Part shown: positions 8,099 to 13,220 of the stretch, piece by piece
Numbering within the stretch: position 1 is the stretch's first letter
Layout: each line of letters starts with the position of its first letter
DNA from: Methyloglobulus morosus KoM1
Lineage (GTDB): Bacteria > Pseudomonadota > Gammaproteobacteria > Methylococcales > Methylomonadaceae
Reading direction: 5' to 3'
DNA: 39,131 nt
Assembly (NCBI RefSeq): GCF_000496735.2
Contig: NZ_AYLO01000058.1
Span: 3,085-42,215, forward strand
Made by a program: the position numbers and the translations under genes
The notes under the pieces: generated by a model
Told to the model about the DNA's origin: nothing
Database searches by the model: none
What the model saw: the letters and a program-made list of their open reading frames with translations, nothing else

Positions 8099-9112
8099 AT
8101 GGACAAAGCCATTATACTTACCGGTATCACTACCACCGGAACGCCACACTTGGGGAATTATGTCGGCGCTATCAGGCCCGCCATCGCTGCCAGTAAAAAC
8201 CAAAACGCCAAGCCATTCTATTTCCTGGCTGACTACCATTCTTTAATTAAGTGCCAGGAGCCGGAACGGGTCAAGCGTTCCAGCCTTGAAATTGCCGCAA
8301 CGTGGCTAGCCTTAGGCTTGGACACAGATAATGCGGTATTTTACCGTCAATCAGATGTACCCGAGATTCTGGAATTGACTTGGATGCTTACCTGCGTGAC
8401 CGCCAAAGGCTTGATGAACCGCGCCCATGCCTATAAAGCCGCCGTCGCCGACAATGAACAAGGCGGCGAGCAAGATCCCGACAAAGGTATTACGATGGGC
8501 TTGTTCAGCTACCCGATCCTGATGGCGGCCGACATCCTGATGTTCAATGCCAACAAAGTCCCTGTCGGCAGGGATCAAGTCCAACATATTGAGATGGCGA
8601 GGGATATTGCGGGGCGATTCAACCATATTTATGGTGAGTATTTTGCCTTGCCCGAAGCGGTACTTGACGAGAATGGTGCGACTTTATCGGGACTTGATGG
8701 GCGCAAAATGAGTAAGAGTTACAATAATACAATACCCTTGTTTGAACCGGAAAATAAGCTGAAAAAGCTCATCAACAAAATCAAGACCAATTCTTTAGAG
8801 CCCGGTGAGCCTAAAGAAACCGAGGGGTGCACTTTATTCAGCATCTACCAATCCTTTGCAACGGCGGATGAAGTGGCGCAAATTCGGCAGCGCTATGCCG
8901 AAGGTATCGGCTGGGGCGAAATGAAACGCATCTTGTTTGAGCATATCAACGGACAAATTGCCCCGGCACGGGAAAGGTATGACGCACTGATGGAAAAACC
9001 GGACCATATCGAAGAACAACTGCAAGAAGGTGCGAAAAAAGCCCGTGCAATCAGCAGCCCGTTCATCCGGGAATTACGCAAAGCCGTCGGAATCAACAGG
9101 ATCACTTCATGA
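8099..9112 (+). CDS. trpS: Tryptophanyl-tRNA synthetase TrpS
   Basis: 337 residues (E. coli 334), a class I synthetase that charges tRNA-Trp. The HIGH-equivalent motif is TPHLGN at 15-20 and the second motif is KMSKS at 203-207. The dimer and tryptophan-binding region [16 protein letters not shown] and [18 protein letters not shown] are intact. The upstream 172 nt (7927-8098) hold no recognisable gene. The stop overlaps the next start by 4 nt (ATGA). Confidence 0.97.
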
Positions 9113-9831
9113 GTATTTACGACAGAAAAATCAAGTTCAGCGATTGGTTGCGGAAATCCTTATTATTTATCCGCCGCGACCCCTGGGTTTGGATAGGTTA
9201 CTCCCTGTTAGTGGCGGCAATATTGTGTGTTGGCAGGGTATCTTACGCGCTGGGGATTTTTTCTGCCGTCGTTTGCCTGTTTGTCGGCGTCGGCGTAGCC
9301 AAATACTGTGACTTGAAACATGCAGAATCTGGCGCCGTCGGGTTGATCTGGGCCATCAAAAAAAGCTTGCCTTTGGCCATTATCTTGGGCGGCATGATCA
9401 TGCTGTGCTGGTTTATATTTTCGGCCCTTGCCAACATCCTCAACGGTCAGGTCGACATGATCAGCTACTTTTTCTTTGACTGGCAATACACCTCCGCAAA
9501 CCTTAGAGGCAGGGACAGCCGAGAATTGGCCATCTGGTTGTACGGTTATGCCAACATTACCTTGATTTTCACCTTGCTGATGCTCGCAACATTCGCCAGT
9601 TGGTATAGTTACCCCTTGATGTTGTTCAAGGATTACAGTTGGAGCCAGGCCAAAGAAGCAGGTCGGCATGAGTGTTCAACACAAAAGGAAGCGTACTACA
9701 AAACCTTGTTATTTCTGGTGTTTGAAGCCATTTTGTGTACCGAAATTACGCCTTGGTTGACCCCAATTTTATATGTCCTGACATCGACGTTTATGTTCGT
9801 GACGTACAAAAGCTTTTTTGAAAAAGCGTAA
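9109..9831 (+). CDS. Multipass inner-membrane protein of unknown function
   Basis: 240 residues with about five or six hydrophobic segments (approximately 25-42, 44-66, 84-108, 140-162, 200-216, 220-236). The N-terminus has a short cytoplasmic stretch followed by [15 protein letters not shown], which resembles the start of the BPSS1780-family membrane proteins; this similarity is remembered, not searched. It has no catalytic motif. The start codon overlaps the trpS stop, so it is probably translated by coupling to trpS. The function is unknown. Confidence 0.75.
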
Positions 9832-10589: not shown

Positions 10590-11087
10590 TTATATCAATT
10601 GCCCAATCGCAAAAGCACTCAAATAAGTGGCTATGAAATAAAATAAGGCTAAAACCATGCTGGCCGCGACATTGACATCCAACGTATGTTTGATAATGTA
10701 AGAAACGATTGCGAAGTACCAGGCTAACAATAGAGAAAACAGATAGTAACTATAGACATCTTCGGTAACAGTCAACCACACCATAACAGGAATGACAAAA
10801 ACCGAAATAATATTCGCACTGAACAAGAATGCGGTGGTGACTTGAATATAGACATAAAGGGCTTTGTTCAGCAACAGCAAGATGCCTAGAAACATCAGCA
10901 TCAATAGGATCTGCAGGGTAATTTCATAAAATGCTTCTAACGGATCATCGATCATATTAGCTTGCAGCAAATAGCCAATAACAAAGTATAGGAGCAAGCT
11001 GTTTTTAAATAGACTCGGCGATCTTGGCAGTTCCAGGGGATCATTCTGTAACCAGCATACCGCTAAGTATTCTTTTAGAATGTCCAT
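10590..11087 (-). CDS. Small four-helix membrane protein, unknown function
   Basis: 165 residues with about four or five hydrophobic helices after a roughly 28-residue soluble start: approximately 29-42, 58-88, 90-104, 112-133 and 140-163. The arrangement (short N-terminal region with DPLELPRSPS, then a bundle) recalls Yip1-like proteins, but I cannot confirm this. The start is ATG at 11087. It sits 42 nt downstream of the dynamin-like gene on the same strand and is likely cotranscribed, so it may be a membrane partner of that protein. No catalytic motif is visible. Confidence 0.7.
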   Translation of the reverse strand: MDILKEYLAVCWLQNDPLELPRSPSLFKNSLLLYFVIGYLLQANMIDDPLEAFYEITLQILLMLMFLGILLLLNKALYVYIQVTTAFLFSANIISVFVIPVMVWLTVTEDVYSYYLFSLLLAWYFAIVSYIIKHTLDVNVAASMVLALFYFIATYLSAFAIGQLI

Positions 11088-11129
11088 AATCGTTTAGATA
11101 GTGGTCAGTAAATAAACGGCCATCAGTGG

Positions 11130-12509
11130 CTAATCGGGAGCATCTGAATCACGGTCATTATAAGTGCTGAAACTGTCATTCAACGATTGCACTAAATCTT
11201 TAGTTTTGTCTGAGAGTTGCGCCAATCGCGTCCTGACTTTTTTGTTCCAGCCAGCAGGTTCCGAGAAATTGAATAACATCCGTGAAAACGTCAAATTCAG
11301 CTCAAAAAATTCACCCAAGTTTTCCATCAAATGCAGGTCTTTGCGGCGGTCGTTTAAGCGGTTCATGATGAATTTGGACTGCAATTTCGCGTTAATCAAG
11401 TGCAAAGGCACCATGACAGAGATAATGACCAGGATAATGATGGGGCCAGTGATGGGATCAAACAACAAGTCAATAACGATACCAAGCTGTAATTCTAGGA
11501 ACACTGCGAGTGCCGCAATGCCGCCAAGGATTAGCAAACTGGTTAAATTAATCCGTTCTTTCCAGGTTGCAATGCCGTCCTTGATTTCGGGAATGATGAC
11601 ATTTTCAATGTCATGGATGCTTTTTTCCAAAACATTCAAGATACGGTAGGATCGGTCATGTTCCACATTAGCCAAGCGCTGGTCAATTTCGATAAATTGC
11701 GGCGGGTTTTGTGCGTTCGCACTGTGCTCCTGGTTGGGCAAGAGGATAAATTGCCCCGTATTAAGCCCCAGATCCGCCAACCGCCGCTGCCAGGAAGAAA
11801 TGATCTCACTGCTTTTGGTGGGGTAAAACGTAGCGGCCGGGGCGTCAATCAAGTAAATAAATTTATTGGTGTCTTGGTGTACCGAGATTTGCCGGATCAG
11901 TTCATTCATCATGGATGACGATGCTTCGAAAACATCACAAAACACCAGGACCAAATCTGAGTTTTCGATGGTGTGGGTAGTCAGCATAGACATGATCGGA
12001 GCGGCGGATGTCGCGCTTACGTTCGGCGCATCAATAAACAACTTGCCTTTCAAGCGTTCGCTATGAATGGTTTTCAGCTCCAGGTAGGCATTGATGCGCT
12101 TACCTTCATCTTTCTGTTGTTGCTCTATTTTCTGGCTAATCTGGTAGAACGGGTATCTATGGTCAACATCAAGCGCCGTTCCGGGCAAGGTTGCCGGTGT
12201 AGACTGGTTGTTATACAGGAGCGCAGTGAATTTATGGCTGGAAGCCTGAATGCCGGAAAGTAATTGCTCCGTACCCAAATAGCTATTGATAAAGCGGGAT
12301 TTTGCGGTGGAATTACCGCCTATCAGGCTAACGATGGGCCACCATGAATACTTGCTGGCAGTGGTTTCTTCATTGTCAATCAAGCCTAAGTCATATTCGA
12401 TTTGATCAAGCTGGTGAAACACTTTCGCCGCATTTAGCAATACCGGGTTGTCCTTGGCAAACGTCTTCTCTAGGTTGGACAGGTATTTGCTTACCGTTTT
12501 TTCAGCCAT
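11130..12509 (-). CDS. Degenerate dynamin-like P-loop membrane protein
   Basis: 459 residues. An N-terminal helical part (1-55) precedes a P-loop domain with GGNSTAKS at about 64-71, where a canonical GTPase has GxxxxGK[ST]; the invariant glycine is alanine. The next expected motif, DxxG, appears as IDAPNV (about 159-164), and NKxD is replaced by YLIDAP (about 219-224). The layout with helices around it and two adjacent transmembrane segments (about 322-346 and 353-374), then a helical tail, is like bacterial dynamin/EHD-type membrane-remodelling GTPases. The ATG at 12509 has GAGGT 7 nt upstream; a TTG one codon earlier is less likely. The degenerate motifs suggest weak or no GTP hydrolysis, or a structural role. 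The family assignment is inference. Confidence 0.7.
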   Translation of the reverse strand: MAEKTVSKYLSNLEKTFAKDNPVLLNAAKVFHQLDQIEYDLGLIDNEETTASKYSWWPIVSLIGGNSTAKSRFINSYLGTEQLLSGIQASSHKFTALLYNNQSTPATLPGTALDVDHRYPFYQISQKIEQQQKDEGKRINAYLELKTIHSERLKGKLFIDAPNVSATSAAPIMSMLTTHTIENSDLVLVFCDVFEASSSMMNELIRQISVHQDTNKFIYLIDAPAATFYPTKSSEIISSWQRRLADLGLNTGQFILLPNQEHSANAQNPPQFIEIDQRLANVEHDRSYRILNVLEKSIHDIENVIIPEIKDGIATWKERINLTSLLILGGIAALAVFLELQLGIVIDLLFDPITGPIIILVIISVMVPLHLINAKLQSKFIMNRLNDRRKDLHLMENLGEFFELNLTFSRMLFNFSEPAGWNKKVRTRLAQLSDKTKDLVQSLNDSFSTYNDRDSDAPD

Positions 12510-12824
12510 CAATCTGACCTCATTTTGTTAAGTTTTATAGGTATGAAGCATGGCAAAAGTATACACCCAGAATGGCGTATTGATAAAAACTAAGGAATAG
12601 ATTTCTTGCTTATTAAGGCCCTGTTGAAACCGTCAAGAAAACAAGAAGCGATCAATGTTCGGCATCAAGACTATACCTTACGCAGTAAATTCACGCTTAT
12701 TTTGTCAGCAACCTACCGTTCGTGTGACAATGGCAAAGCTTTTATAAGGCATTCGCCAACCAGATATTGGCAAGTAACTTATTGCCCCTCATAATACGCC
12801 GTAAATGATTAAGGATCGTAAAAG
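12510..12824. other. Intergenic region between divergent genes, no gene seen
   Basis: About 315 nt lie between the dynamin-like gene (minus) and the lipoprotein gene (plus), so both promoters should be here. A 62-codon open frame at 12606-12794 has no ribosome site and no recognisable protein pattern. I see no convincing terminator, RNA or repeat. Confidence 0.5.
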
Positions 12825-13220
12825 GTGCTAATACCCAGGTTTTCAACAATAGTCGCCATTACTATTGCTAGCTTGTTACACGGTTGTGCGTCTTTCCCTG
12901 TATTACGTTACGGCCCTGACAGGCAGTTACGCGAGGATTTTGAACAACGGGTTGAGGCGGCATTTCGGTTACAAAACAGGATGACCAGCGAAGTCATGGT
13001 GTTACAGTCCGATGGCTCCGATCCCCGGCAACATGAGCCTATCATTAGTGCAGAACAGCTTATGGAGAAAAATTGCAGTTATCTTAACGAGTATGCTTCG
13101 CGCGATATAGACGGCCTGAGCAAAAGCTTTATCTTGCTCCATCATGTGGAAAATTCTGTAGCCGATTGTGAATCAGCAGCCCAGAAAGTTGAGAATCTGC
13201 TGGAACTACATCAGCAATAG
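12825..13220 (+). CDS. Small predicted lipoprotein
   Basis: 131 residues. A short signal peptide (hydrophobic core at about 7-17) ends in the lipobox LLHGC, placing the acylated cysteine at residue 21, followed by Ala-Ser, which favours outer-membrane sorting. The mature part is mostly helical and hydrophilic, with two further cysteines (NCSYLNEYA and VADCESAA) that could form a disulfide. The start is GTG at 12825 with AAGGA about 9 nt upstream. I do not recognise a family. It is monocistronic by context: nadB is convergent downstream. Confidence 0.65.
   Translation: MLIPRFSTIVAITIASLLHGCASFPVLRYGPDRQLREDFEQRVEAAFRLQNRMTSEVMVLQSDGSDPRQHEPIISAEQLMEKNCSYLNEYASRDIDGLSKSFILLHHVENSVADCESAAQKVENLLELHQQ

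Follow-up and report, generated by a model that had tools for sequence, protein, structure and literature searches.

The window analysed here, a stretch of 39,131 nucleotides from the Methyloglobulus morosus KoM1 contig NZ_AYLO01000058.1, contains on its reverse strand an open reading frame (ORF; positions 11130 to 12509, ATG at 12509) whose 459-residue product matches the dynamin/EHD fold and possesses a degenerate nucleotide site. A TTG at 12512, one codon upstream of this ATG, offers an alternative start (ORF 11130-12512, reverse strand). The genome holding this gene is 4.14 Mb in size, and the closest records found in a scan of named genomes, whose titles mostly read Methylococcales or methanotrophs, include a Methyloglobulus MAG (79% identity) and Methylobacter genomes (about 63-66%); these titles suggest that the family is the Methylomonadaceae. 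Separated from the dynamin-like gene by an operon-like intergenic gap of 42 nt (11088 to 11129), a second gene on the same strand (10590 to 11087) encodes a protein of 165 amino acids for which the ORF and its structural model suggest one short and five long membrane helices, and which belongs to no Pfam family; we refer to it as the five-TM partner. A putative lipoprotein gene, recognized by eye from a lipobox-like LLHGC sequence and often conserved upstream, is oriented divergently (12825 to 13220, forward strand). Elsewhere in the window, a membrane-looking protein of 240 residues is encoded on the forward strand (9109-9831) with a few-base overlap with the end of ORF 8099-9112, which by eye we take to be trpS; neither Pfam nor NCBIfam gave a credible match for the 240-residue protein.

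The first-pass annotation, made from the DNA letters alone, had described a P-loop devoid of its invariant glycine, a degenerate DxxG motif and a missing NKxD motif in the dynamin-like protein, and all three descriptions are borne out. The P-loop (G1; residues 64-71, positions 12297 to 12320, reverse strand as for all motifs of this protein) reads GGNSTAKS, with an Ala in place of the Gly preceding the Lys, where relatives with the canonical form possess GTFSAGKS or GLFSAGKS. The DxxG position is occupied by IDAPNV, and the G3 motif (IDAPN; residues 159-163, positions 12021 to 12035) is without the Gly of the canonical IDSPG. In the G4 region (YLIDAPA; residues 219-225, positions 11835 to 11855), where canonical relatives have [FY][IV]LNQxD, not only NKxD but also NQxD, the form found in the active relatives, has been lost. 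The signature of active dynamins (P-loop GxxxxGK[ST], DxxG, [NT][KQ]xD) was not found in the protein. Retained, in turn, is an EHD-like motif, LPGTALDVDHRYPF (residues 108-121, positions 12147 to 12188), which is equivalent to PGNALVVDPxxPF of EHD4. Two hydrophobic segments (approximately residues 319-353 and 342-377) make up a predicted hydrophobic hairpin (residues 319-377, positions 11379 to 11555).

An AlphaFold2 model of the dynamin-like protein (pLDDT 83.3, pTM 0.77) was built from an alignment (A8) of the window protein and 50 relatives taken from 75 candidates, L100 (same contig as L019), L117, L119, L124, and L126 having been excluded beforehand. The dynamin/EHD-type fold with a membrane hairpin that had been proposed from the sequence found support in this model, and no fold unrelated to dynamins emerged from structure prediction and fold search. 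The top match in Foldseek was EHD4 (E 1.7e-10), with TM-scores (0.43 and 0.50) that are moderate, and a second aligner likewise ranked EHD4 (Z 18.5 over 345 residues, with a high rmsd of 7.6) ahead of EHD2 (17.1), mitofusin (15.3), IniA (15.0), and BDLP (13.5); rotated domains may be the cause of the high rmsd. In the model, the hairpin is placed at the tip of the stalk, between two long helices. The Pfam Dynamin_N profile scored the window protein at 26.6 bits (E 7e-6), just missing the gathering cut-off of 27 bits, and at E≤0.01 matched 20 of 41 aligned members (33 degenerate and 8 canonical). Searches among solved structures, by sequence and by profile (phmmer/hmmsearch), placed EHD4 and EHD2 first, and the alignment paired LPGTALDVDxRxPF with PGNALVVDPKKPF of the window protein. 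By descent and by predicted fold, the protein thus falls into the dynamin superfamily, with a modelled G domain followed by a helical stalk. With EHD2 and EHD4 it shares, besides this domain order, the PGxALxVDxxxPF motif with the PF that belongs to the KPF loop; in EHDs, one study describes this loop as an oligomerization interface (PMC9741607). It differs from them in that it is bacterial, lacks an intact P-loop, G3, and G4, bears a hydrophobic hairpin at the tip of its stalk, and has a five-TM partner; moreover, Pfam scans found no C-terminal EH domain in the 459 residues, in which the stalk helix extends to residue 448 and is followed by a low-confidence tail.

To place the motif changes in context, we compared the protein with its relatives. 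In one alignment, the canonical P-loop was present in 0 of 114 rows from the methanotroph group of the window (99 distinct sequences, since the loci L001-L034 and L061-L140 share genomes) versus 38 of 38 relatives outside this group (37 distinct; one genome is represented twice, L038/L141). All 38, which stem from other families, keep GxFS[AS]GKS, DSPG, and NQxD. Among the 114 degenerate rows, the Gly before the Lys has been lost in 111, G4 in all 114, the Gly of G3 in 112, and the Ser/Thr following the Lys in 31; kept are the P-loop Lys in 110, the switch-I Thr95 in 105, and Asp160 in 97. In some genera the Lys is gone as well (GGQSSASS, GGSSQASS, GGNTQAAS). Our search of relatives detected the dynamin-like gene in 42 of 61 genomes: all 34 copies from the window's family are without the canonical P-loop and G4, and the eight copies belonging to two further families in the same order have kept GLFS[AS]GKS or GTFSAGKS, DSPG, and NQxD. 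In the scan of named genomes, the canonical P-loop occurred in none of 80 loci (L061-L140; two of them, L117 and L119, are incomplete), which were assigned to the family from similarity and record titles, 10 of these titles reading only proteobacterium or Gammaproteobacteria.

Wider surveys gave the same picture. In the survey of the class, 95 of 370 genomes gave a match, including three genomes of the window's family and one weak partial match, and the best 30 loci all carry GTFSAGKS, GTFSSGKS, or GVFSAGKS together with IDSPG and NQxD; in the survey of the phylum, the best 12 of 50 were likewise canonical in P-loop, IDSPG, and NQxD. Catalytically intact relatives occur in many families throughout the class and the phylum. 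In the family survey, none of the 30 most canonical-like of 219 copies was canonical, and the best family score against the canonical profile was 359.5 bits versus at least 447.9 for full-length canonical copies of the class survey. These data confirm that the loss of the motifs is a property of the whole clade, fixed across one family. Two basal copies, L033 (GSDGFGKA, DMPG) and L034 (GEPSSGKN, APG), still possess the GK of the P-loop and the Gly of G3 and look like intermediates. The canonical orthologues in other Proteobacteria, EHD-like dynamin-like proteins (DLPs) of mostly 470-560 amino acids, are direct sequence relatives of the window protein (about 32-37% identity for the eight sister-family copies) and share with it the order of the motifs, the hairpin, and a C-terminal LND motif.

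In a maximum-likelihood tree of 51 rows (34 degenerate, six of the eight sister-family, and 11 of the 30 class rows) calculated after removal of the three motif regions, all 34 degenerate rows formed a single clade (100/100), which has a long stem of 1.16 changes per column and branches next to the canonical rows from both sister families. This reconstruction shows the motif loss to have arisen once, on a single branch. Of 237 family genomes, 219 carry a copy of the gene, as do 166 of the 173 good ones and 28 of 29 genera, a degree of conservation that excludes a chance ORF or a misreading; the exception is genus g21, in which none of five genomes (G027, G583-G586) yielded a dynamin-like gene. 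In four within-genus pairs with unsaturated dS, dN/dS amounted to 0.045-0.058, while dS was saturated in the remaining 11 of 15 pairs, with a pN there of 0.10-0.16. Estimated from such pairs, these values show that the predicted gene is kept by purifying selection. Among the 14 closest genomes compared, the sequence GGNSTAKS does not vary, although its codons differ synonymously; the altered P-loop itself has hence come under constraint there. In other genera, the broken P-loops take different forms. One might read the absence of the catalytic motifs as the decay of a functionless gene, and one species does contain an in-frame TAG within it (L019/L100), either a MAG error or a recent loss; L019, with this internal stop, was left out of alignment A1. 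Given the low dN/dS in the measurable pairs, the retention in nearly all good genomes, and the newly invariant residues described below, the chance that we are dealing with a decaying pseudogene is negligible.

The pattern of constraint within the protein differs between the two groups. The canonical relatives show hardly any variation in G1, G3, and G4, and their hairpin belongs to the more variable regions (mean entropy percentile 0.74), whereas the degenerate set has relaxed motifs and a hairpin that, at a mean entropy percentile of 0.50, contains new invariant positions. E339, D351, P352, and P368 are found in all 114 degenerate rows, while the commonest residues at these positions in the 38 canonical rows are Gly (14), Ser (9), Pro (18), and Gly (10), respectively. 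At G343 and at G355, 112 of 114 degenerate rows possess Gly; at G343, so do 25 of 38 canonical rows. The PF of the EHD-type loop is found in both sets (in the degenerate one, P120 in 114 and F121 in 113 of 114 rows). Since the canonical sample is more diverse and covers more families, part of its hairpin variability reflects sampling depth; the overall mean entropies of the two sets, calculated from separate alignments, are similar (1.43 and 1.51). Taken together, the alignments show conservation to have moved from the predicted nucleotide pocket to the putative membrane hairpin. The hairpin residues are conserved also in copies that are not adjacent to a five-TM partner and therefore need not contact it.

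The first-pass annotation had further noted a 165-residue multi-helix membrane protein 42 nt downstream of the dynamin-like gene. The membrane protein was modelled with five long helices (pLDDT 93.6), its alignment (A9) comprising the window sequence and 51 of 62 partner rows, and it is genuinely linked to the dynamin-like gene. By tblastn at a threshold of 1e-4, which a very diverged partner could escape, 63 of the 76 named loci with enough sequence carry it downstream (61 within 91 nt, the others at 222 and 501 nt; four further loci had too little sequence). In the relatives search, 30 of the 34 family loci have it on the downstream side versus none of eight sister-family loci, the latter being a difference between the window protein and its canonical orthologues. 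The adjacent partner is missing from 13 of the 76 testable named loci and from four of the 34 family loci. When we used the window's own proteins as tblastn queries against 49 named loci with both flanks available, the partner was present in 43, followed by the lipoprotein (31), nadB (20), trpS (14), rpoE (11), YigZ (7), and mem240 (7). Its conservation exceeds that of every other neighbor tested, which excludes that it is conserved merely through regional conservation. The putative lipoprotein gene lies upstream of the dynamin-like gene in 43 named loci, while 30 more, each with 1 kb or more of upstream sequence, gave no match; among the family loci with sufficient sequence it occurs in 21 of 32, versus none of six from the sister families, and every match was divergent.

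Some member of the partner protein family occurs in 56 of 61 relatives. The linked copies form one clade (95/90), apart from the unlinked paralogues, in a tree (L058, with a cut start, omitted) whose bootstrap is rough and not settled and which drew long-branch warnings. Three of the four unlinked family loci lie at the base of the dynamin tree, the fourth being L031, so the linkage to the partner was probably acquired after the motif loss; it is possible, alternatively, that the linkage was lost at the base of this tree. The unlinked partner paralogues reside in varied contexts (L041 2675-3187, L042 4255-4761, L045, L047), with neighbors that by eye we take to be a CHASE2-type protein and an H+-PPase at L041 and type I secretion proteins at L042. 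As to the nature of the partner, Pfam and NCBIfam searches produced nothing credible, and no Pfam family was assigned to 42 members; a Foldseek search with the partner model gave nothing under E 0.9, and a second aligner reached at most Z 6.0 (SERINC3), a value of little meaning for a helical bundle. A Yip1-like identity of the partner is without support. In contrast to paired bacterial DLPs, no second dynamin-like gene was found adjacent to the dynamin-like gene of the window, the neighbor being a five-TM protein without a Pfam match.

The active relatives often close an operon-like run (L173, L174, L176, L181, L182, L188, L190), several members of which occur per locus: a DUF4412 protein, a ParA/MinD-like ATPase, TPR, DUF302, and DUF948-like coiled-coil membrane proteins, with the dynamin gene last. 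At L181, a sulphur-globule-like protein (PF17228, E 7e-10) is encoded upstream, and other active loci carry genes for Gly/Tyr/Pro-rich secreted proteins; a search of open-licence PMC papers found none joining the terms 'dynamin-like protein' and 'sulfur globule'. We considered whether the methanotroph locus is a remnant of this run and rejected the idea: a DUF302 profile, the one of three profiles run with a control, matched none of the 61 relatives versus 15 of 20 active-copy genomes, three of them sources of rows in this profile. A coiled-coil profile gave four weak matches among the 61 relatives, inside longer proteins, and a ParA profile matched two of the 61 at 1e-30.

The window protein possesses a modelled GTPase fold, has lost the nucleotide motifs, and its gene is kept by selection; by these features it can be placed among the pseudo-GTPases or quasi-GTPases, presumably without catalysis. 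In our judgement it is probably the methanotroph-family orthologue of an active EHD-like bacterial dynamin that was converted once into a nucleotide-independent quasi-GTPase (pseudoenzyme). Since the shape and the membrane anchor have been kept, the GTP residues have been lost, and the five-TM partner is usual, the protein is probably a fixed scaffold rather than a motor. More tentatively, and with slightly less than even confidence, we propose that the family turned a dynamin mechanoenzyme into a nucleotide-free structural membrane scaffold, whereby the constraint moved to the hairpin and a five-TM partner and often a lipoprotein were acquired. In a scaffold of the probable kind, the G domain would no longer bind nucleotide and would serve as a static assembly module using the retained EHD-type PF loop; the hairpin would anchor the protein in the inner membrane, with the five-TM partner probably close by and in contact with the protein. 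Such an assembly would need neither GTP nor ATP turnover to maintain membrane curvature or contacts, and its own lifetime would then be set by expression and partner binding, not hydrolysis. The pair may have the membrane-shaping or membrane-protection function envisaged at the outset. Some observations sit uneasily with a scaffold. According to the EHD study cited above, nucleotide-free EHDs attach to membranes yet build no remodelling filaments (PMC9741607), which argues against a simple EHD-like assembly. That L033 and L034 still hold the P-loop GK and the G3 Gly also counts against a scaffold.

The main rivals of the scaffold are altered nucleotide binding and the regulation of other DLPs. 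Weak or altered nucleotide binding may remain, since the P-loop Lys and the switch-I Thr are kept in 110 and 105 of 114 degenerate rows, in which case the protein could be a membrane switch gated by nucleotide that does not go through the normal cycle of hydrolysis. The retention of Asp160 and the conservation of GGNSTAKS among close genomes in spite of codon changes speak for such a switch, and a precedent exists in the N-terminal pseudoGTPase domain of p190RhoGAP, which, according to a review, binds GTP and does not hydrolyse it (PMC10211241). Set against this are the nearly complete loss of the Gly before the Lys, the absence of G4 from every row, the loss of the Ser/Thr after the Lys in 31 rows, and the genera in which even the Lys has disappeared. 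In Ras, the G15A substitution abolishes nucleotide binding, and we presume the loss of the Gly before the P-loop Lys to be its equivalent, which weighs further against altered binding. On balance, we consider a nucleotide-gated switch rather unlikely. A regulatory role, in which the protein would form pseudo/active hetero-oligomers with active DLPs of the same cell, could draw on three other Dynamin_N proteins of about 650 amino acids (GKT, DTPG, TKSD) in the same genome, and IRGQ quasi-GTPases have been proposed as regulators of active IRG GTPases (PMC1297648). The three candidate clients are, however, of a larger type and are encoded on other contigs than the dynamin-like gene, and we regard this role as clearly improbable. 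The genes in question (L191 2464-4404, L192 2449-4428, L193 2653-4608) specify AEFSRGKT, DTPG, and TKSD, with the first P-loop Gly missing, and the genes following L191 are presumably those for ATP synthase subunits.

A component specific to building intracytoplasmic membranes together with pMMO is very unlikely. The first-pass annotation had suspected a tie to such membranes, for which we used the pMMO/AMO subunit family as a marker in the 61 relatives, bearing in mind that incomplete genomes blur the comparison (e.g., G006, with the partner at a contig edge). Both the dynamin-like protein and a pMMO/AMO subunit gene were present in 39 genomes, as such a component would lead one to expect, but 15 pMMO-positive relatives, some of them incomplete, showed no copy of the protein, and three relatives with the protein had no detected pMMO/AMO gene; four had neither (Fisher p 0.19). 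Genus g21, without the gene in its five genomes, is represented by one tested genome, G027, which is pMMO-positive. The suspected tie is thus not supported, though the protein may still have some role in these membranes.

Among known systems, a parallel is offered by the vertebrate IRGQ proteins, dynamin-superfamily relatives named quasi-GTPases for their lost GTP-binding motifs (PMC1297648); they belong to the IRG branch and have a separate origin, and current interest in IRGQ concerns its role as an autophagy receptor (PMC13172515). The fold matches of our model also included the bacterial proteins IniA, BDLP, CjDLP, and SynDLP. With BDLP, IniA, DynA, CjDLP1/2, and SynDLP the window protein shares a bacterial origin and the dynamin fold; in contrast to them, its linked partner is not a dynamin, and the chains are larger in these matches. 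Working nucleotide motifs are generally ascribed to these bacterial DLPs. Among the open-licence PMC papers listed by our searches, no title or beginning of an abstract described a bacterial dynamin with lost GTPase motifs or a study of dynamins in methanotrophs, and a search of open-licence PMC for papers on prokaryotic EHDs likewise found none. The methanotroph protein would represent a branch of quasi-GTPases within an EHD-like bacterial family for which the papers listed gave no description either.

Dynamins are understood as nucleotide-driven machines. Here, a natural lineage is at hand in which the site was lost once, the sister group is intact, and the copy has been kept in nearly all good genomes, and the question of which dynamin functions need nucleotide thereby becomes one that can be asked. 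For the methanotrophs, some of which are in culture, the locus would represent a small, testable membrane module consisting of a scaffold and its five-TM partner, often accompanied by a lipoprotein.
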